Source: a virus. From it: 26,765 nt of DNA. Position 1 is the stretch's first letter. Each line of letters begins with the position of its first letter. Location of the stretch: IMG/VR virus record IMGVR_UViG_3300044959_000358, positions 1 to 26,765 of that record, one strand, 5' to 3'. The notes beneath the pieces are model-generated. The model saw only the letters and a list, made by a program, of their open reading frames with translations, did not search any database and was not told the origin of the DNA. This document shows positions 1-26,765 of this stretch, piece after piece. The translations under genes were made by a program, and so were the position numbers.

Positions 1-644
1 CAATCGACGATCGGCGGGAACGGGTAGGGCCAGACCACCTCGCCGACCGTCTGCCACTTCCCCCCGGAGTACGCCTTCTCGTCGTGGATGACCCAGCTGG
101 CCCCGTCGGGCTCGATCGTCTGGCGGAGGACGACCGCGCGGCTCGTCTCCGGGTCGACAGTTGGGAACTGGATCCGGTACGAGAGCACCCGTTCGTGGTC
201 GTCGGGAGCGACCGACACCGTCACCGTCGCGGGGTCGAGCACGACGAGACGCGGATAGGGCAGCGAGGGCTCGACGACGATCTTCACGAGGGCGTGGCCC
301 GCGATGGCACCGGACAGGGCGAGCTTCTGCAGGAGCGTGAGCTTGCGGTTGGCCGCCCAACAGGCATCGAGCCAGGCCTCGGCCTCGGTCGTCTCCCCTT
401 CGACGAGCTCGAAGCGCACGTCTTGGCCGAAGAGGAACGAGACCCCCTTGTCGACGACAGCACGGCAGAGGTTGACGATGACGTTGTCGTCCGGCTGGCC
501 GGGTCGGGCACGGAGCTGCGCCGGGTGCCTGCCGTAGTAGTACTCCCAGCGGCGGGCGATGGCAGCGGCATGCGCGATCTCCTGCGCCGCGAGCGCTTCG
601 GCGAGTCCCAGATCGACCGGGTGTGGGTACGGCCAGACAGCCAT
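1..644 (-). CDS. Phage portal protein, N-terminal half (cut by window edge)
   Basis: This is the N-terminal part of the portal, the dodecameric ring at one capsid vertex through which DNA is packaged and to which neck proteins attach. Translation from the ATG at 644 (preceded by GAGGAGGAGAGCG) gives about 214 residues beginning MAVWPYPHPVDLGLAE. It includes RRWEYYYGRHPAQL, NVIVNLCRAVVDKGVSFLFG and a beta-rich middle ending WPYPFPPIVD, the layout of SPP1 gp6-type portals. The frame runs off the window without a stop. The missing C-terminal half is at 26109-26765 on the same strand. It follows the endolysin gene by 11 bases, so terminase, lysin and portal are one transcription unit. The family call rests on residue patterns and on position between terminase and MuF genes. 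Confidence 0.85.
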   Translation of the reverse strand, partial: MAVWPYPHPVDLGLAEALAAQEIAHAAAIARRWEYYYGRHPAQLRARPGQPDDNVIVNLCRAVVDKGVSFLFGQDVRFELVEGETTEAEAWLDACWAANRKLTLLQKLALSGAIAGHALVKIVVEPSLPYPRLVVLDPATVTVSVAPDDHERVLSYRIQFPTVDPETSRAVVLRQTIEPDGASWVIHDEKAYSGGKWQTVGEVVWPYPFPPIVD

Positions 645-655
645 CGCTCTCCTCC

Positions 656-1939
656 TCAGGGCATGAGCCCGCGCGTCTTGGCGGCAACGCGGGCACGGAC
701 AGCGTCTTCGAAGAGCGCCACGTGCACGTCCCAGGGAGCAGGCTCTCCGTGCGACCACTTGAGCACCGCTCGCTCGAAGACCTGGTACACCGATCCGTCG
801 AGGTCGAACTCCTCGGTCAGCGGCCAGCCGAGCACGCGGAGCGGGATGGTGGTATCGACCTGCTCCAGCTGCCGCCACAACGCCAGGAACCCGTGGCCAA
901 CGTGACGGCCGAACGGGCCGACCTTGACGACGTCGCTCATCGTGTCCCTCCCTTCGAGCGCTGCTCGCACGCGCTCGCGGTACGACTGGAACCCCTGCGT
1001 CAGGATGCGCCGTGGGCAAAACTTCCCCGACCAGTGCTGGTGCGGGACGACCGCATTGAGTGACAGCCCGAACGCACGCACGATCGCAGCTGTGAGCAGA
1101 GCGCCGTTCGCTTGTGTCCGCTCCCAGTCACCGTCGCTGTTGATGCAGAGCTCGATACCGATCGAGGCACGGTTCCCCGTGCCGTTCGGTCCGTCCCCGG
1201 CATGCCAGCCGTTCTCGAGCGTGGGAAGCAGCTGCACCACCTCGCGGTCGTCGACCACGAAGTGGAAACTCACCCCCTCCGGCCCGCCGCCGGCGTGGAC
1301 GAAGCGCCGGTGCGCCTCGGCATTGGCTCCCGGGTTTTCGTTCGCCGTCTCGTGGATCGTGACGAACTGCGGCCGCATGGGATACCCAGACCGGTTCTGA
1401 CGGCCGTCCGGGATCCAGGCGATCCGATATGCCACACCGGGAAGTTCCGGTTCCGCGTGTGCGTTCATGAACGTGACGACGGAAGCGATGTAAGCTGAGG
1501 GTACGTTCCCGTCGGCCGCTGGCGCCCAGATCGGCACGATCTCACCGATCGTCCACGCGCGCCGCTGCCGGTACACGAACGTCGGATCGACCAGCCGCCG
1601 GGCCAGGTCTCGGAACCCCTCCGTCCAGCTCGGGTAGCGCCAGAACTGGCCGCGACCCGTTACCGCGACCGGTTCGCCGACCCCGGTGCGGCTCGTCCGC
1701 GTGGCGCCGGGGTTCTTGAGGTCGTGCGCCGGCACTAGCCCCACCGTGCCGAAGCGCGACTCGTGGTTGAAGACTGCCAGCGCGAAGAGGGGGTCGACCC
1801 CCTCCGCCGCGACCGCCTGCCAGGACGCACGCGCCTCGGGCGCCGCAGGCGAGCCCGCATCGACGAGGATCCGCTCGAACCGCTCCGGTGAGATGCGTGG
1901 GAGGACGCCCACGACGACAGTGTCTGCGGTGACTGTCAC
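656..1939 (-). CDS. Two-domain endolysin: lysozyme/glucosaminidase-like plus zinc amidase
   Basis: This 427-aa protein probably degrades host peptidoglycan at lysis. Residues about 30-160 look like a glucosaminidase/lysozyme-like fold: NHESRFG carries the likely catalytic Glu60, followed by a GQFWRYPSWTEGFRDL stretch. Residues about 188-325 are an N-acetylmuramoyl-L-alanine amidase (amidase_2/PGRP) domain with VTIHETAN (zinc ligand His196), GWHAGDGPNGTGN, IGIELC and VPHQHWSGKFCPRRI (likely ligands His300 and Cys308). Residues about 365-410 (VLGWPLTEEF, QVFERAVLKW) resemble a short repeat I associate with Chloroflexota surface proteins and may bind the wall. There is no signal peptide, so export should need a holin; one is encoded at 20449-20862. 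Start GTG at 1939 lies 3 bases after the terminase stop, with GGGGGTGAG upstream. Confidence 0.88.
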   Translation of the reverse strand: MTVTADTVVVGVLPRISPERFERILVDAGSPAAPEARASWQAVAAEGVDPLFALAVFNHESRFGTVGLVPAHDLKNPGATRTSRTGVGEPVAVTGRGQFWRYPSWTEGFRDLARRLVDPTFVYRQRRAWTIGEIVPIWAPAADGNVPSAYIASVVTFMNAHAEPELPGVAYRIAWIPDGRQNRSGYPMRPQFVTIHETANENPGANAEAHRRFVHAGGGPEGVSFHFVVDDREVVQLLPTLENGWHAGDGPNGTGNRASIGIELCINSDGDWERTQANGALLTAAIVRAFGLSLNAVVPHQHWSGKFCPRRILTQGFQSYRERVRAALEGRDTMSDVVKVGPFGRHVGHGFLALWRQLEQVDTTIPLRVLGWPLTEEFDLDGSVYQVFERAVLKWSHGEPAPWDVHVALFEDAVRARVAAKTRGLMP

Positions 1940-4253: not shown

Positions 4254-5278
4254 CACGCACCAGCCTGCTTCCGTGCCCGTATGGCCTCCCGCTCGCGGCG
4301 GAGCAACTCGCTCGGCGGGAGATCCAGGTCGACAGTGAACGTGCGCTGGAGCTCCGCGAGTCGGTCCGGCGTCACAGTGCCGTTCGGGCTGGCCCGCGCC
4401 CGAGCTCGGTACGGGCTTCCCCGTGCGCCATATGCCCCCTCGAGGACCCGCACAACGTGCTCGCTTGACTCGAGCAGCCAGTCCAGCGTCGCCTGCCAGC
4501 CCGAGTCCCCCTCGCCCCGCAGGAACGGCGACGCCCGCACGCGCTCGAACAACCGCTCCCACCAGGCCAGTTCGTAGACCCGGTCACCGTCCGGCAGTGA
4601 CCTGGCGAGTTCGCGGCAGCGCAGCGCGAACCGCTGCCGACGTTGCTTAGTTACGCCCAGTACCTCGGCGAGTGCCGGGCCTGGCCCGTCGCCAGCGCAG
4701 ATCCGGTTCCAAGCCTCGACCACAGCGTCGAAATCCGGCGGATCGAGCGACGACGACACACGACGGCGCTCGCGCGCCTCCGCGCGAGCGCGCCCGCTGT
4801 GTGTATCCGCAGTCCGCAGTCCGGAGTCAGGAGTCAGGAATCCGGAATCAGATGGGCTGGCCTCGTGCTCATCTGGTTTCGGCACCGGGCCAGCACCGTG
4901 CTCGTCTGGTGCTGCCGTAGTACTGGGCTCTGGTGTGTCTGCTGCCGCTCCTGTATCCGGCGGTGGCGGGATCGTGCTCTCCGGTTCTCGTACGTGTGGA
5001 GACTGGTGCCGCTCGAAGTTGACGACCTGGATGTAACGCGTCCCATCGATCTCGTAGCGGACGATGAATCCCGCGCGCGCGAGGTCATCGAGTGCACGGT
5101 CGACGTCCCAGTCGTCGTAGGGGAGCACCTCGGCTTTGATCCGTTTCGGCCGGTCTTCGAGACGGCCGCGCCGGTCAGCGAGACACCAGAGTCCCTGAAA
5201 GAGAATGCGCGTCAGCGGTGGCAGTTCCGCGAGTTGCTCGTTTTTGAAGAAACCTGGTTTGAGGTTACGAGCACGCAC
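4253..5278 (-). CDS. Phage replication initiator (DnaD/O-like)
   Basis: This 341-aa protein probably binds the phage origin and recruits host helicase. The N-terminal ~100 residues match the winged-helix replication organiser type: RNLKPGFFKNEQLAELPPL, RILFQGLWCLADRRGRLEDR, KRIKAEVLPYDD, RALDDLARAGFIVRY and VVNFERHQSPH. A Pro/Thr/Asp-rich linker (about 100-170) follows, then a helical C-terminal part with WNRICAGDGPGPALAEVLGV and AWWERLFERVRASPFLRGE, the pattern of DnaD-type phage replication proteins. The start is taken as GTG at 5278, with AGGGGGG upstream and a 14-base overlap with the preceding HTH gene. The linker DNA holds a 7-bp tandem repeat (4807-4851), recalling origins that lie inside O-type genes. 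The rusA start overlaps its stop. Confidence 0.82.
   Translation of the reverse strand: MRARNLKPGFFKNEQLAELPPLTRILFQGLWCLADRRGRLEDRPKRIKAEVLPYDDWDVDRALDDLARAGFIVRYEIDGTRYIQVVNFERHQSPHVREPESTIPPPPDTGAAADTPEPSTTAAPDEHGAGPVPKPDEHEASPSDSGFLTPDSGLRTADTHSGRARAEARERRRVSSSLDPPDFDAVVEAWNRICAGDGPGPALAEVLGVTKQRRQRFALRCRELARSLPDGDRVYELAWWERLFERVRASPFLRGEGDSGWQATLDWLLESSEHVVRVLEGAYGARGSPYRARARASPNGTVTPDRLAELQRTFTVDLDLPPSELLRREREAIRARKQAGA
4807..4851. repeat. Tandem 7-bp repeats inside the replication gene, candidate origin iterons
   Basis: Six consecutive 7-base units, read on the plus strand, are CCGCAGT, CCGCAGT, CCGGAGT, CAGGAGT, CAGGAAT and CCGGAAT, followed by CAG. They lie in the part of the initiator gene that encodes the low-complexity linker (residues about 143-157, reading DSGFLTPDSGLRT). 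Seven is not a multiple of three, so the repeat is not simply a repeated peptide. In lambdoid phages the origin iterons also lie inside the initiator gene; whether this is such an origin is inference. Confidence 0.5.
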
Positions 5279-5651
5279 CGTCGACCCCCCTGAAAGGCGT
5301 GGCGGCTCGCTGCGCGAGCACGGCGACCGATCGAACGACCTGCCTGAGCCCGCAGCGCACCTCCTCAGGAATCCTCTGGTCAGCGAGTAGCGATGCCAGA
5401 GCCTCGAGTTCGGGATCCAGCACCGATGGTGTGAAACCAGCACTGGCCAAAAGGGCGCTCGTATCCGCAGCAGGGAGCGACAACGCATCAGCTATGCGCA
5501 ATATGAGGTCGCGACTTGGGCGACGCTCCCCGCGCTCGAGCCGACTCACATAACTGTGGTCGACCCGAACCAGTCGCGCAAGACGAGCCTGCGAGACTCC
5601 CGTCCGTTCGCGATACCATCGCAAGAGTTCAGCAAACGACCGCTCGCCCAC
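5265..5651 (-). CDS. Cro/CI-type helix-turn-helix regulator
   Basis: This 128-aa protein has an N-terminal XRE-family HTH (residues about 6-62): ELLRWYRERTGVSQARLA, LVRVDHSYVSRLERGERRPS and LILRIADALSLP. The C-terminal half (ELEALASLLADQRIPEEVR) is helical and could mediate dimer formation. The start is GTG at 5651, with GGGGGGAG upstream, one base after the stop of the preceding gene. It sits in the middle of the early operon rather than opposite a divergent promoter. It may therefore regulate its own operon or act as an activator rather than a classical CI repressor. No LexA-like peptidase domain is present. Confidence 0.85.
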   Translation of the reverse strand: MGERSFAELLRWYRERTGVSQARLARLVRVDHSYVSRLERGERRPSRDLILRIADALSLPAADTSALLASAGFTPSVLDPELEALASLLADQRIPEEVRCGLRQVVRSVAVLAQRAATPFRGVDGACS

Positions 5652-7962: not shown

Positions 7963-8679
7963 TCACACCTCCTCACCATGCGCAGCGCCACGGATGGCCT
8001 CAGCCGGGACGAGGAACTCGCGTGTCTCGATCGGCACGCGCTCGAGGTAGTCGACGAGGTACGAGCGACGCTCCTCGGCGAGCGCGGGGCCGTAGTAGTG
8101 CGCGAGGATGCAGTACGCCAACTCGTTCGGTCCCGACCCGCGGTACCCGAACTCGAACCCGCTCGAGAAGCGACCGGAAGGGCGGATCGGGTGGTGCCCG
8201 ATCCAGGCGACGACCTGACCGTCGTCGTTTCGGATGACCCGGACCGTCTCCACCGGACACACGAGGCATGCCTCGACGTCGCGCGTCTCGAACCAGACGA
8301 TCCCCGCGACCGCTGCGGCGGCACCGAACTGGCTCTGCCACCGCTTCAGCCGCTGCCAGGATCCGTCCCACTCCGCCCATGCCCGGGCCCGGTGCCGGCA
8401 GGGGTAGCGCGCCGGGCAGTCGCACGTGAGGCCGTCAGCGCGCCAGTCAACGCAGTGCCACGCCTCACGCGAGCCACAGGAGCCGATGCAGGCGACGAGC
8501 AACGGGCTCGCGTACGGCTCGCCGTGCCAGCGCACGAACACGAGGTGCTCACCGCCCCAGTCGAGTTCGGCATGCGGCGGGTACGAGTCGAGCGCGCGTG
8601 CGAGCGCCCGGCGCCACGCCGCGGAACGGAAGTCTGGTTGCATGGCACGCTGTATGATAGACTGGTGTACGGACACCAT
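7963..8679 (-). CDS. SWIM zinc-finger protein with DUF6166-like C-terminus
   Basis: This 238-aa protein carries a SWIM-type zinc motif at residues 86-96 (CDCPARYPCRH: Cys86, Cys88, Cys94, His96), preceded by a beta-rich region (HLVFVRWHGEPYASPL) and more cysteines (CIGSCGS). The C-terminal ~70 residues (FEFGYRGSGPNELAYCILAH, then YLVDYLERVP) look like the DUF6166 type, a small domain often found in phages and plasmids. SWIM fingers bind DNA or protein. The start ATG at 8679 is preceded by AAAAGGAG and sits one base after the stop of the small upstream ORF; longer frames have no comparable ribosome site. A second SWIM protein starts the operon at 9832. Function unknown. Confidence 0.75.
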   Translation of the reverse strand: MVSVHQSIIQRAMQPDFRSAAWRRALARALDSYPPHAELDWGGEHLVFVRWHGEPYASPLLVACIGSCGSREAWHCVDWRADGLTCDCPARYPCRHRARAWAEWDGSWQRLKRWQSQFGAAAAVAGIVWFETRDVEACLVCPVETVRVIRNDDGQVVAWIGHHPIRPSGRFSSGFEFGYRGSGPNELAYCILAHYYGPALAEERRSYLVDYLERVPIETREFLVPAEAIRGAAHGEEV

Positions 8680-8680
8680 C

Positions 8681-8863
8681 TCAGTACTCCTTTTCTCTCT
8701 TTTCTCTTCGCACCGGGCGGGTGGTCGCGGCATCCGTCCGGTGCTCTGCTGTCTGGTCCTCACACGCGGTATCCGGGACCGGCCTGAGTAGCCGGTCCCA
8801 CAGCCACCGCCAGCCAGAGGAATCCGCCAGATCCGGCGGGATGAGATCGCGAACGTATGGCAT
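8681..8863 (-). CDS. Hypothetical 60-aa protein
   Basis: This short ORF begins MPYVRDLIPPDLADSSGWRW and ends strongly basic (RPVRREKREKEY). The ATG is one base after the stop of the ribbon-helix-helix gene and no clear Shine-Dalgarno sequence precedes it, so it would depend on coupled translation. Its stop lies in the ribosome site of the next gene. The Trp-rich centre and tight packing favour a real gene, but I do not recognise it. Confidence 0.45.
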   Translation of the reverse strand: MPYVRDLIPPDLADSSGWRWLWDRLLRPVPDTACEDQTAEHRTDAATTRPVRREKREKEY

Positions 8864-8864
8864 G

Positions 8865-9125
8865 CTAGGAGGAGCGGCCCGCATGTCCGAATCCCTGACC
8901 GACTGGGAGCTCGTCTGCGTTGCACACCTCCTTCCCGAGAAGATCCGCATACTCTCGCAACAGGAGCGCGACAGCCGCATCGATCGCATGACTGCGATTC
9001 ACAAACACGCCTCGCTCGACCAGCAGATCCAGTTTCGCCACAGCATCTCCGTCAACATGCGCCGCGATGGTTCGACGTGCTGAGCCATTCGGACGGCGAT
9101 GGGTCGTCGTCGTCATCATCCTCAC
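8865..9125 (-). CDS. Ribbon-helix-helix (CopG/Arc-type) regulator
   Basis: This 86-aa protein contains an RHH fold at residues about 15-60: RTIAAHVDGDAVAKLDLLVE forms the strand and first helix, and GVFVNRSHAIDAAVALLLRE the second helix. Such proteins bind DNA as dimers on inverted or direct repeats. The GTG at 9125 is favoured because GGGAGGTG lies 6-7 bases upstream; two ATGs follow two codons later as alternatives. Upstream sits a good promoter whose spacer contains a perfect 18-bp palindrome (9159-9176), the natural target for autorepression. The C-terminal tail (NADELPVGQGFGHAGRSS) is unstructured. It may set the balance of early gene expression or copy number. Confidence 0.78.
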   Translation of the reverse strand: MRMMTTTTHRRPNGSARRTIAAHVDGDAVAKLDLLVERGVFVNRSHAIDAAVALLLREYADLLGKEVCNADELPVGQGFGHAGRSS

Positions 9126-9148
9126 GTCTGACACCTCCCTTCTAGCGA

Positions 9149-9298
9149 CTAACGTAGCACAGCGTCTTGACGCTGTAAATAGACGACTAGTCGGTGTAGA
9201 AACTCGTCGGTCGTGGCATGGTACGACTCCTTTCCCACTACGCGACACGGACCGGCTGATCGTGCAGGTGCGTCCGGTGGCGGTCGTGCACGGCGCAT
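9149..9298 (-). CDS. Possible 49-aa ORF in the leader of the RHH gene
   Basis: An ATG at 9298 with GGAAGGAG six bases upstream opens a 49-codon frame (MRRARPPPDAPARS..., ending LVVYLQRQDAVLR) just after the SWIM gene. It uses several codons rare in the neighbours (CTA, TTA, CGA) and runs through the promoter and operator of the next gene, which argues against it. A second strong ribosome site (GGGAAAGGAG) precedes an ATG at 9219 that encodes only MPRPTSFYTD. Either could be a leader peptide; I give little weight to both. Confidence 0.22.
   Translation of the reverse strand: MRRARPPPDAPARSAGPCRVVGKESYHATTDEFLHRLVVYLQRQDAVLR
9151..9179 (-). promoter_or_regulatory. Sigma-70-type promoter for the RHH gene
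   Basis: On the minus strand, TTTACA (9174-9179, 5 of 6 to TTGACA) and TACGTT (9151-9156, 3 of 6 to TATAAT) are separated by exactly 17 bases. It lies about 25 bases upstream of the GTG of the RHH gene and its ribosome site. The spacer is filled by a perfect palindrome. Confidence 0.55.
9159..9176. promoter_or_regulatory. Palindromic operator within the promoter spacer
   Basis: ACAGCGTC-TT-GACGCTGT is an 18-base inverted repeat with perfect 8-base half-sites, between the -35 and -10 boxes. A protein bound here would block RNA polymerase. A further 10-base palindrome CGACTAGTCG lies just upstream at 9184-9193. The RHH protein encoded next is the likeliest ligand; the HTH proteins at 5265 and 9963 are alternatives. 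Confidence 0.6.
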
Positions 9299-9316
9299 CG
9301 CACGCTCCTTCCGCAC

Positions 9317-9832
9317 TCACGCCTCGTCGTCCACCAGTTCGGCGTACGCCAGTGCGTCGTGGCAGGTCCAGCAGACGCCGTCCGGATCCAGCACGCTCCC
9401 GCAATCCGGGCAGCGATCCGGTTCCGCGACCGGTTCGAGGTGACCGACCCGTCCCTGCATCGTGCAGAGGCTGCAGCGCGTGCCGGTGCGGTCCTCGTCG
9501 GTCTCGATCTCATGGCCACGTTCGCAGCGGTAGCGGCGGCGTGTCTTGCCGCCACCGCTCCCGTCGTCGCCACCGTTGCCGTTGCGCTCGGCGAAGAGCA
9601 TCGCAGCCAAAACGTGCTTGCACGGCAGGTCCCGCTTGCTGGTGCGGTACGTGAAGTCTGGACAGCTGCAGCGTGGCGTATCGACATTGACCAGGTACGC
9701 CTTGCCTGCGCCGTTGACGACGGCGTAGAGACCAGGCTGACCGTGAACCTCGAAGACGCGACCCTGCGCGACCAGTTCCTGCGCCTTCTGATACCGCTCG
9801 GCGATCATCCGTGCTTCCGCTGCCGTCACCAT
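9317..9832 (-). CDS. SWIM zinc-finger protein with two C-terminal zinc ribbons
   Basis: This 171-aa protein is the first gene of the long minus-strand operon. Residues 55-73 form a SWIM motif (CSC at 55-57, then PCKH with Cys71 and His73) within a beta-rich region (GLYAVVNGAGKAYLVNVDTP). After a Gly/Asp linker come two more zinc-binding units: Cys103/His107 with Cys120/Cys123, and CPDC (141-144) with CWTC (154-157). It is thus a compact multi-zinc protein, likely to bind nucleic acid. The ATG at 9832 is preceded by AAGGAGG; the alternative seven codons upstream is less well placed. A strong promoter lies about 40 bases upstream. Small SWIM proteins of this type are common in phages and plasmids, but their function is not known. 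Confidence 0.78.
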   Translation of the reverse strand: MVTAAEARMIAERYQKAQELVAQGRVFEVHGQPGLYAVVNGAGKAYLVNVDTPRCSCPDFTYRTSKRDLPCKHVLAAMLFAERNGNGGDDGSGGGKTRRRYRCERGHEIETDEDRTGTRCSLCTMQGRVGHLEPVAEPDRCPDCGSVLDPDGVCWTCHDALAYAELVDDEA

Positions 9833-9869
9833 GTCCGTCCTCCTTCGCGTCACTACTCCTTACAGCTAC

Positions 9870-9898
9870 ATGCTACTACATCATGCTGCGCTTGTCAA
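9870..9898 (-). promoter_or_regulatory. Early promoter of the minus-strand operon
   Basis: TTGACA (9893-9898, a perfect -35) is followed after 17 bases by TAGCAT (9870-9875, 4 of 6). It reads towards the SWIM gene at 9832. The -10 region overlaps two direct AGCATG repeats (9869-9874 and 9882-9887, 13-base period) that may be a regulator site. It is the only strong promoter I found at the head of the minus-strand run. Confidence 0.65.
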
Positions 9899-9926
9899 GC
9901 ACGTCGTGCACGAGACTCCCGCTTTC

Positions 9927-9935
9927 TGCTACAAT
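9927..9935 (+). promoter_or_regulatory. Extended -10 promoter for the plus-strand HTH gene
   Basis: TGCTACAAT matches an extended -10 element (TGn plus TACAAT) with no good -35. It lies about 28 bases before the ATG at 9963, just ahead of GGAAGGAAGGAGG. It is divergent from the minus-strand early promoter, so the two may share control by a protein binding between them (GCACG-T-CGTGC at 9899-9909). Confidence 0.5.
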
Positions 9936-9962
9936 CAGCGACGGAAGGAAGGAGGACATGCG

Positions 9963-10187
9963 ATGGCTTGCCAGCAGGAGGTGGCGACGATGCTGACGGT
10001 ATCCGAAATCGCTCAGCGACTGAAGGTTAGTCCAGAGACGATCCGACGCTGGCTGCGCTCCGGTCAGCTGCACGGCGTGCATCTCAGTGACCGTGCCGGC
10101 TGGCGCGTTCCCGCGTCCGAGATCGACCGGTTCCTCGCGCAGCGTGCCGGCCAGCACGGTACGCACGCGGACGAGAACGGTCGGTAG
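9963..10187 (+). CDS. MerR/excisionase-like helix-turn-helix protein
   Basis: This 74-aa protein is essentially a single winged-helix DNA-binding domain of the HTH_17/excisionase type: MLTVSEIAQRLKVSPETIRR, then WLRSGQLHGVHLSDRAGWRV and PASEIDRFLAQRA. Such proteins act as excisionases, plasmid replication cofactors or simple regulators. Two starts are possible: ATG 9963 (GGAAGGAGG seven bases upstream) and ATG 9990 (AGGAGG upstream); the first fits the promoter better. It is transcribed away from the minus-strand operon and heads the only plus-strand gene cluster. With no integrase present, an excision role is doubtful; control of the divergent promoters or of replication is more likely. Confidence 0.8.
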   Translation: MACQQEVATMLTVSEIAQRLKVSPETIRRWLRSGQLHGVHLSDRAGWRVPASEIDRFLAQRAGQHGTHADENGR

Positions 10188-10213
10188 CCGGTCGCGCACG
10201 GTGCCGTACAGAC

Positions 10214-10248
10214 GACGGCGGCGATCGTCCCGACCGATCGCCGCCGTC
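10214..10248. repeat. Perfect 14-bp inverted repeat (stem-loop)
   Basis: GACGGCGGCGATCG and its exact complement CGATCGCCGCCGTC are separated by a 7-base loop. No T-tract follows on either strand. It sits in the 271-base stretch between the HTH gene and the truncated primase. It could be a U-less terminator, a replication or nicking hairpin, or a protein site. Confidence 0.7.
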
Positions 10249-10258
10249 AGCACGAGAA

Positions 10259-10462
10259 GACGGCTGGTTACGACGCGATCACCGTGATTTCGCCGCACTG
10301 CCGGACTGGCGTCTGCGGCGCGAGGCACGAATCCTCAGCGCGTTCCTCGAAACCGAGGCAGGTCAGCGGGTGTGGGACCGACCATGGTTCGCACAACGGC
10401 TGCACGCGGTCCGAGACGAACTGACGCGGCGTCGGGAAGCACGCCGAGGGGGACGACCATGA
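10259..10462 (+). pseudogene. Start-less ORF before the truncated primase
   Basis: An open frame ending at TGA 10462 reads as convincing protein over its last 67 codons (DGWLRRDHRDFAALPDWRLR, ILSAFLETEAGQRVWDRPWF, AQRLHAVRDELTRRR). Its stop overlaps the next gene's ATG as ATGA, the usual sign of a coupled upstream gene. However, no ATG, GTG or TTG with a ribosome site occurs in this frame after the HTH stop; further upstream the frame crosses the 14-bp hairpin and looks non-coding. It is probably a gene that has lost its start by mutation or deletion. The product would be a small helical, basic protein that accompanies the primase in the intact module. The left boundary given is where coding character begins, not a start codon. 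Confidence 0.4.
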
Positions 10463-11091
10463 AGCGGCGTGCGCCACTCGCGTGTCCGACCTGTGGCGGC
10501 GAACTTACCGCGATCGGACCGGATGGTGCGCACTGCATCCGCGGACACTTCGTTCCGCGCGATCCCGACGGGAGACTCCTGGCGCAACGGGACGGACCGG
10601 ACGAGATGGCGGACGCACCAGCTGACGGACCGGCCGGCGGACCGGCAACGACGGCGACCACGGCGACTGCCGGACCGGCACCGGACGAGACTGGTGCGCA
10701 GCGACGCCAACGGCAGTCGCAAGCGGCACGGTTGGTGGCACTCGCCGACGCACACGGCGTCGCGCTCTGGCATACGCCGGACGGCGAACCGTGGGGAACG
10801 ATCGCGGTCGCTGGTCACCACGAACACTGGCCACTCGCCGCGCGCGCGTTCCGCACCTGGCTGCAGCGCGTGTTTTACGAAGCGCACGGCGAACTGGCGC
10901 ATCACCAGGCGGTCGCCGATGCGATCGACGTGCTGGCTGGTCGTGCACTCTTCGCCGGACCGACGCACGAGGTCCACGTCCGCATCGCACAGCACGGCGA
11001 CGCGCTCTATCTCGATCTCGCGGATAACGAGGTTACGCGCAAAACTAGCAGAACCGGTCGCTCGTCACCAGCGGCCTCCAGCCAAGGGTAG
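10459..11091 (+). CDS. Truncated primase/helicase N-terminal region
   Basis: This 210-aa product starts at an ATG overlapping the preceding stop, with GAGGGGG upstream. It begins with a zinc-ribbon-like CPTCGGEL (Cys9, Cys12) plus Cys26/His30. A Gly/Pro/Ala/Thr linker full of GGACCGG-type repeats follows (residues 48-80). Then comes a domain, VALWHTPDGEPWGTIAVAGH, EHWPLAARAFRTWLQRVFYE, VADAIDVLAGRALF and HVRIAQHGDALYLDLADNE. I associate this domain with the N-terminal part of large phage or plasmid DNA primase/helicase proteins that continue into an ATPase domain. Here the sequence becomes unrelated after LADNE and stops, overlapping the 3' end of the tail hub gene on the other strand by 27 bases. 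The ATPase part is absent from the window. The family comparison is from memory. Confidence 0.65.
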   Translation: MKRRAPLACPTCGGELTAIGPDGAHCIRGHFVPRDPDGRLLAQRDGPDEMADAPADGPAGGPATTATTATAGPAPDETGAQRRQRQSQAARLVALADAHGVALWHTPDGEPWGTIAVAGHHEHWPLAARAFRTWLQRVFYEAHGELAHHQAVADAIDVLAGRALFAGPTHEVHVRIAQHGDALYLDLADNEVTRKTSRTGRSSPAASSQG

Positions 11092-26108: not shown

Positions 26109-26765
26109 TCATCCCTCCCCTTGCAGCGCCTCGAGCATCTTCTCCGCCGCGTCGGTAGCCGACAACTGCCCCTTCTCGCGCTCAAGTTCCGGGTCGAGCC
26201 CGAGCCGGCGCAGGATCGTGTCCTGCGAGACGCCGAGCTGCTGCCAGAGGAGGAGCGTCTGCGCCTCCGCTTCGGGGTCGCCCGGGATGAGCTCTGGCCA
26301 GTGGAGATCCGTCACGAGTTCGTCGCCGAACCCCCCGATGGCGAGGAGACGCCGGTTCAACTCGACGAGAAGGTCGCCATAGAGACGCCGCTTCGTCTCC
26401 GTCTTCTCGATCAGCGGCTGGTACAGGATCTGGAGCGCGACGCCCGACAGCGAGCCCACGCCTTCGACGCGGCCCGTCGCGATCTCCGGCACGCGCGCGA
26501 TCTCGTGGAACGCCTCGCGCAGCCGCAGGTAGAGCTGGATCGAACTCGCGAGATCGCTCTGCATCTCGAGGTTCCTGAGTTCCGCCTCCGGCGAGGGCAG
26601 GATGATAGTCTCGTCGACGGAGAGGTCGAGCTGCTCGGCGCGGAACCCTCGCCCCCACGTCTTGGGGTGCGCGTGATAGCGAACGATCCTGAGGAGGTTC
26701 GAGAGCAGGAAGTTGATCGAGTCGTTGAGCTTGAGCACGTCGTCTTCGAGGTCGGAGATGCCCCA
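26109..26765 (-). CDS. Phage portal protein, C-terminal half (cut by window edge)
   Basis: The frame is open from the window edge (WGISDLEDDVLKLNDSINFL) to the stop at 26109, 218 residues. It includes LLSNLLRIVRYHAHPKTWGR, GFRAEQLDLSVDETIILPSP, QSDLASSIQLYLRLREAFHE and SGVALQILYQPLIEKTETKR, the C-terminal pattern of SPP1 gp6-type portals, ending in an acidic helix. The GTG at 26738 is an internal Val, not a start. The N-terminal half lies at 1-644 on the same strand, so the gene continues across the end of the window. Confidence 0.85.
   Translation of the reverse strand, partial: WGISDLEDDVLKLNDSINFLLSNLLRIVRYHAHPKTWGRGFRAEQLDLSVDETIILPSPEAELRNLEMQSDLASSIQLYLRLREAFHEIARVPEIATGRVEGVGSLSGVALQILYQPLIEKTETKRRLYGDLLVELNRRLLAIGGFGDELVTDLHWPELIPGDPEAEAQTLLLWQQLGVSQDTILRRLGLDPELEREKGQLSATDAAEKMLEALQGEG

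Follow-up and report, generated by a model that had tools for sequence, protein, structure and literature searches.

The locus described here raises the question of what controls the promoter in front of a small RHH-like gene of a phage. The original prediction, made from the letters of this DNA alone, saw in it a self-contained autoregulatory switch, in which a perfect 18-bp palindrome filling the promoter spacer was the operator of the RHH protein encoded by the next gene. We examined this locus in the window (the whole stretch of 26,765 nucleotides that was analysed) and in three homologous loci, G132, L037 and L042, which are called the relatives below. The elements of the region are as follows.

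8865-9125, minus strand: RHH-like regulator gene P0001, GTG start, 86 aa; family scores below the curated cut-offs
9134-9139, minus strand: Shine-Dalgarno-like GGGAGG, unchanged in all four loci
9141-9150, minus strand: downstream repeat, conserved, AGTCGCTAGA here and AGACGCTAGA in each of the relatives; it follows the -10 hexamer without a gap
9151-9156, minus strand: -10 hexamer TACGTT (TAATGT in G132, TAAGCT in L037, TATGCT in L042)
9157-9159, minus strand: extended -10 element TGC, the same in all four promoters
9157-9173, minus strand: spacer, 17 nt
9159-9176, no strand: perfect 18-bp dyad ACAGCGTCTTGACGCTGT, that is ACAGCGTC-TT-GACGCTGT; single copy, dyad not kept in the three relatives
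9174-9179, minus strand: -35 hexamer TTTACA, paired with TTGACA in the aligned G132, L037 and L042
9180-9188, minus strand: upstream repeat, conserved, AGTCGTCTA here and AGACGTCTA in each of the relatives; just upstream of the -35 hexamer
9184-9193: second palindrome of the original prediction, CGACTAGTCG, overlapping the upstream conserved repeat
9317-9853, minus strand: SWIM zinc-finger gene, upstream of the RHH gene; the relatives have a divergent CI-like repressor there

The perfect dyad was found in the promoter TTTACA-17-TACGTT as predicted; 15 of its 18 bases lie inside the spacer and the other three make up the second half of the -35 hexamer. The RHH-like gene is indeed the next one, beginning with its GTG at 9125 behind GGGAGG. 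The second palindrome, which had been said to adjoin the dyad, is present but lies 7 bp away from it.

Window phage and its probable host

The window is a virus record in which the family search named a terminase, an amidase, RusA, a Mu-F-like head protein, a holin and a replication initiation protein. The portal, capsid and tail genes were read by eye from the open reading frames, and a tape-measure match stayed below the cut-off. The gene read as portal is split over the two ends of the window (1-1019 and 26109-26765). The record ends aligned 28 bases apart in five of the seven loci with terminase relatives (L002-L006), partly in L007 and not in L008, so the record probably represents an almost full circle. 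The terminase relatives in bacterial genomes were four, namely Bacterium HR27 (75%), two Chloroflexi bacterium records (75 and 62%) and an Eremiobacterota record (38%), which points to Chloroflexota as the probable host. HR27 is a thermophile, and the host of the window phage would be thermophilic if it is HR27-like. Searches of the window with Rfam at gathering thresholds and with ARAGORN gave no hits.

Relatives of the locus

The RHH-like protein of L037, which was found by an alignment search, is 80% identical to that of the window over 69 aa and 71% over the whole. The protein of G132 (G132:C8) is 73% identical and its gene lies behind the same promoter. L042 was reached via the CI-like protein of L037 and has an RHH-like protein in the same place that is 35% identical. 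In all three relatives the RHH gene is divergent from genes for a CI-like repressor and an ImmA-like (M78) peptidase, which is the lambda-type arrangement. Pfam HTH_3 and Peptidase_M78 were found in L037 and G132, and the genes of L042 were recognised by similarity. The record or contig of each relative also contains one recombinase, of the resolvase type in G513 (L037) and G132:C8 and a tyrosine recombinase in G514 (L042).

The CI or ImmA-like protein of L037 had no match in the window at E<=1 (tblastn), and the divergent CI arrangement was not found there. Likewise, no integrase or recombinase of PF00239 or PF00589, the mark of a temperate phage that was sought, was found in the window. It is therefore doubtful that the switch is self-contained, since the promoter of the relatives is part of a divergent CI/ImmA-RHH arrangement and the window shows one half of it.

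Peptides of the window RHH-like protein had no match in viral contigs, in phage and plasmid records or in the seven terminase-relative records. Of the three bacterial genomes that contain terminase relatives, two gave matches, all of them weak (E 0.02 to 0.39). The RHH search of the class (158 genomes) returned G132 and a weak match in G050. The latter was dropped as another family, as its RHH gene precedes a gene that by eye resembles the MazF/PemK type. G132 alone was returned when RHH was sought in a 400-genome sample of the phylum and when CI or the leader pattern was sought in the 158 genomes. The RHH protein of L042 was absent from the 158 genomes and matched only its own record among the viral contigs, and two promoter-pattern scans of the viral contigs returned the L037 and L042 records only.

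A different RHH-like protein (RHH_5, below the cut-off) was seen at 10401-10604 of the locus L010, divergent from the early genes and at the place that CI holds in the switch-bearing phages.

Promoter and leader

In the alignment the two hexamers are 17 nt apart in all four promoters, within the 16-18 nt of a sigma-70-type promoter common to homologous loci, and TGC stands before each -10 hexamer; the predicted layout is thus present in every one of the three homologous loci found. The consensus -10 hexamer is TATAAT, which the four promoters match at only three or four of six positions, and the window promoter was absent from a consensus promoter scan of 8000-11000 (threshold at least 9 of 12). 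With a criterion set after the site had been seen (-35 at least 5/6, TAnnnT, extended TG, spacing 17), it was the sole matching site in the window and 50 shuffles gave none.

Between the window and G132 the identity is 5/6 in the -35 hexamer, 10/14 in the spacer, 3/3 in the extended element, 3/6 in the -10 hexamer and 15/16 in the leader. At the fourfold sites of the RHH gene it is 15/36. This comparison of four promoters, two of them (G132 and L037) from close kin, supports the promoter well, and it looks real. The transcript would start at approximately 9144. This predicted start leaves the dyad upstream of the transcript, and for that reason an RNA hairpin formed by the dyad was set aside.

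The RHH-like protein

The 86-aa protein scored 20.6 bits with the RHH_8 profile (cut-off 25.4) and 15.7 bits with RHH_1 (cut-off 20.5), below the curated cut-off in both cases. RHH_1 was matched by all four members at E<=1, with a best E of 0.001. A sequence search of the PDB returned no RHH protein by name and a single match, at E 1.4. The structure model made from the single sequence was poor, with a mean pLDDT of 56 and a helix at 15-23, where the RHH strand is expected. The model made from three sequences had a mean pLDDT of 69, helices at 26-37 and 44-70 and no strand in the monomer. The six best Foldseek matches, counted by entry and not by chain, came from RHH-containing entries of NikR, ParDE and PrpTA, with E 1.3 to 7.3. 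We consider the RHH assignment likely, not certain, and the autoregulation of its own promoter by this protein plausible. The next gene (7963-8685) matches DUF6166 and, below the cut-off, SWIM; Pfam gave no toxin family for it.

The 18-bp dyad

No other copy of the dyad with zero to two mismatches was present in the window. The half-site GACGCTGT, of which the original prediction proposed to seek further copies, occurs there 47 times with at most one mismatch against 41.0 expected, a count reached in 21 of 100 shuffles, so there is no half-site excess. Perfect dyads with 8-bp arms and a gap of 0-8 numbered 23 in the whole window (mean of 20 shuffles, 9.0), and those with a gap of 2 numbered 2 (0.9 in shuffles). 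When the 191-nt stretch 9126-9316 was shuffled 5000 times, 193 shuffles contained an 8-bp-arm dyad with a gap of 0-8 and 26 contained one with a gap of 2. The dyad is thus mildly unlikely by chance: notable, not overwhelming.

The pairing of its arms declines among the relatives. All eight arm pairs are present in the window, six in G132, five in L037 and four in L042. The outer arms ACAGC/GCTGT are retained in G132, and one outer arm is broken in L037. The dyad is therefore not kept wherever the N-terminal region of the RHH-like protein is kept, as this region is identical in the loci with eight, six and five pairs. Unlike the promoter and the flanking repeats, the dyad is not kept in the relatives, so it is unlikely to be the element chiefly in control. 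This weakens the claim that it is the operator, and the conserved operator it probably is not. We infer that the spacer is under partial constraint and that the dyad is a form of it peculiar to the window. That it helps the binding of the RHH protein is a minor possibility.

The viral contigs contained 11 exact matches to the dyad, by eye mostly in coding-like sequence. This is about the number due to chance by a rough estimate that does without the base count of the collection. Near copies were sought with up to three mismatches in the loci examined. A copy with two mismatches, ACAGCGTCGAGACGCGGA, lies at 10820-10837 of L010, the locus of a related phage, in the gap that precedes its corresponding early genes. 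The number of such copies expected across the examined loci is about 0.6, an estimate based on one simulated hit.

The flanking conserved repeats

The repeats on the two sides of the promoter follow the patterns AGWCGTCTA (upstream) and AGWCGCTAGA (downstream), and their starts are 38 bp apart in all four loci. The window shares 8/9 upstream and 9/10 downstream bases with each relative, and the relatives are identical among themselves (9/9 and 10/10). At the W of AGWCG, the window has T in both copies, and G132, L037 and L042 each have A in both. The flanks are better conserved than the fourfold sites of the RHH gene (17/19 vs 15/36, Fisher p 0.0006). L037 and L042 agree at all positions of the flanks (19/19) and at 5/14 of the 14-nt spacer (p 0.00005). 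A further copy of TAGACG lies on the CI-gene side in the relatives. Clusters of TAGWCG, a motif picked after looking, were found at the promoter, with four copies within 66 nt in the window and L042 and three in L037 and G132. Simulations equalled them in 0/200 cases for the window and for L042 and in 1/200 for L037 and for G132. By this comparison the conserved repeats appear to be better candidate operators than the dyad. These repeats, together with the CI half that was not found in the window, tell more about the locus than the dyad does. The most conspicuous palindrome of a promoter need not be its operator, and the three relatives shift the attention to inconspicuous repeats that flank it.

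The stretch HQRTISRMEN, which we take to be the recognition helix of CI, is identical in the CI proteins of G132, L037 and L042. The N-terminal region of the RHH-like protein (SARRTIAAHVD) is identical in the window, L037 and G132 and different in L042. The 14-nt spacer follows the same division, with 9 to 13 of 14 positions alike among the window, L037 and G132 and 4 to 6 of 14 alike with L042. As the flanks and the CI stretch are identical in L037 and L042 while their RHH N-terminal regions differ, the flanks seem to track CI, and the spacer seems to track RHH. This is a lead, not proof, because the relatedness of the phages runs the same way. In the three phages with a similar RHH protein, the spacer is slightly better conserved than the fourfold sites (10/14 vs 15/36, p 0.057; 9/14 vs 15/34, p 0.17), which leaves room for an RHH site inside the spacer. 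The tracking of RHH by the spacer would be the best remaining argument for such binding, to an imperfect rather than a perfect dyad.

Discussion

We consider it fairly probable that the site is an early, PR-like promoter of an RHH regulator which holds the Cro position of a lambda-type switch. Several other explanations of the dyad and of the repeats were weighed against the same data. The reading closest to the original prediction, that the dyad is the own operator of the RHH protein and that binding in the spacer blocks RNA polymerase, seems rather unlikely to us. The perfect dyad covers the end of the -35 hexamer and the spacer, local shuffles seldom gave a gap-2 dyad of that size, the outer arms persist in G132, and the spacer is slightly better kept than the fourfold sites where the RHH proteins are alike. 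Random change rarely turned the 18-mer of a relative into a perfect dyad (287/400000 for G132 with four changes and 60/400000 for L037 with five), so the dyad, if derived, looks favoured. A precedent is the RHH antitoxin MazE6, described as binding an operator of 18 bp in which its own -10 lies (PMC9477884). However, G132 and L037 have an identical RHH N-terminal region and only six and five of the eight pairs, with an outer arm of L037 broken, and L042 has four; there is no second dyad copy in the window, and the exact matches in the viral contigs are about as many as chance would give.

The perfect dyad could instead be a mutational by-product without a selected role, an imperfect palindrome like that of G132 having been perfected by template switching during replication. 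Such template-switch mutation has been described for quasipalindromes of E. coli (PMC7202029), and the window and G132 differ at 4 of the 18 positions, where two adjacent bases of the right arm (TA vs AC) and a G of the left arm complete the pairing in the window. Against this, the change may have run the other way: a perfect ancestor would nearly always decay (96785 of 100000 trials with four changes left at most six pairs). We regard this origin as unlikely. It is very improbable that the dyad is coding sequence, in a 49-aa gene (9298-9149) whose 3' end the region would form. The frame of this gene begins with ATG behind an upstream AAGGAG and takes up the space from the SWIM gene to the RHH gene. 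It was rejected on its codon score (-0.263 bits per codon vs -0.024 to +0.263 in six other genes, of which SWIM and RusA were also in the training set), its third-position GC (0.49 vs 0.64 to 0.86), the absence of a Pfam match at E<=0.01 and the gene arrangement of the relatives, where the aligned stretch sits between divergent genes.

The flanking AGWCG repeats, for their part, might be operators of the RHH protein and not of CI. The window retains them and gave no CI homologue, and its two copies share one base difference from the relatives, which would suit a single protein reading both. RHH dimers can bind short repeats, such as the hexads reported for RelB (PMC2812701). Yet the RHH N-terminal region is the same in the window, L037 and G132 though the base of the repeat differs, and it differs in L042 though the repeats match, which makes this assignment doubtful.

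As to the preferred reading, an early promoter with an RHH regulator in the Cro position, the relatives resemble the lambda-type CI/Cro switch in its form with an ImmA-like peptidase. Their CI-like HTH repressor and M78-type peptidase genes point away from a set of genes headed by that of a small putative DNA-binding protein, and repeats lie around the promoter. Unlike that switch, the Cro position holds an RHH-like protein and not an HTH protein, and the window is without the CI half. Arc and Mnt of P22 are autoregulating RHH repressors. Together with RelB and MazE6, they resemble the present case in the small size of the protein, the two predicted helices after an N-terminal region and the gene placed directly behind a promoter with repeats; here, however, the operator is a candidate only, the next gene has no toxin family and the profile scores are below the cut-offs. 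The Cro protein of PY54 is described as binding one 16-bp palindrome in front of cI, and as probably exerting no repression on its own synthesis (PMC4488713). Among the literature matches listed for RHH proteins in phage switches and for the host group, none describes the present arrangement, which is no proof of its absence.

In the relatives, CI would bind the flanking repeats and thereby keep the early operon silent. As the first product, the RHH protein would lower the transcription from its own promoter and, in the relatives, of cI, as Cro does. The window phage may descend from such a switch-bearing phage and have kept the RHH half alone; its CI half would then have been lost, not missing from the outset.

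A bolder version, to which we give little credence, makes the window phage a natural 'virulent' derivative that dropped CI, ImmA and the recombinase and changed both repeats from AGACG to AGTCG. The CI of a related prophage could then not shut its early operon, and the RHH protein would be the sole phage controller of the promoter. That both repeats of the window differ at the same base could reflect an escape from prophage immunity, and the phage would be the wild counterpart of the lambda-vir operator mutants. If this is true, the locus would show a natural escape from superinfection immunity and an RHH-like protein in the role of Cro, in phages that probably infect Chloroflexota.

Inverted repeats were seen in gene gaps of the window at 8710-8744, 8775-8799 and 10214-10248, with arms of 14, 9 and 14 nt and loops of 7 nt, the first being 86% complementary; a terminator scan of 8000-11000 listed none of the three. 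An HTH_31/HTH_3 protein is encoded at 5265-5651 and could be a repressor; an HTH_31 protein also occurs among the early genes of L037, besides its CI. Finally, a consensus-like promoter (TTGACA-17-TAGCAT, 9898-9870) precedes the SWIM gene and is divergent from an excisionase-like HTH_17 gene (9960-10187), and this stretch may serve the window phage as a control region.
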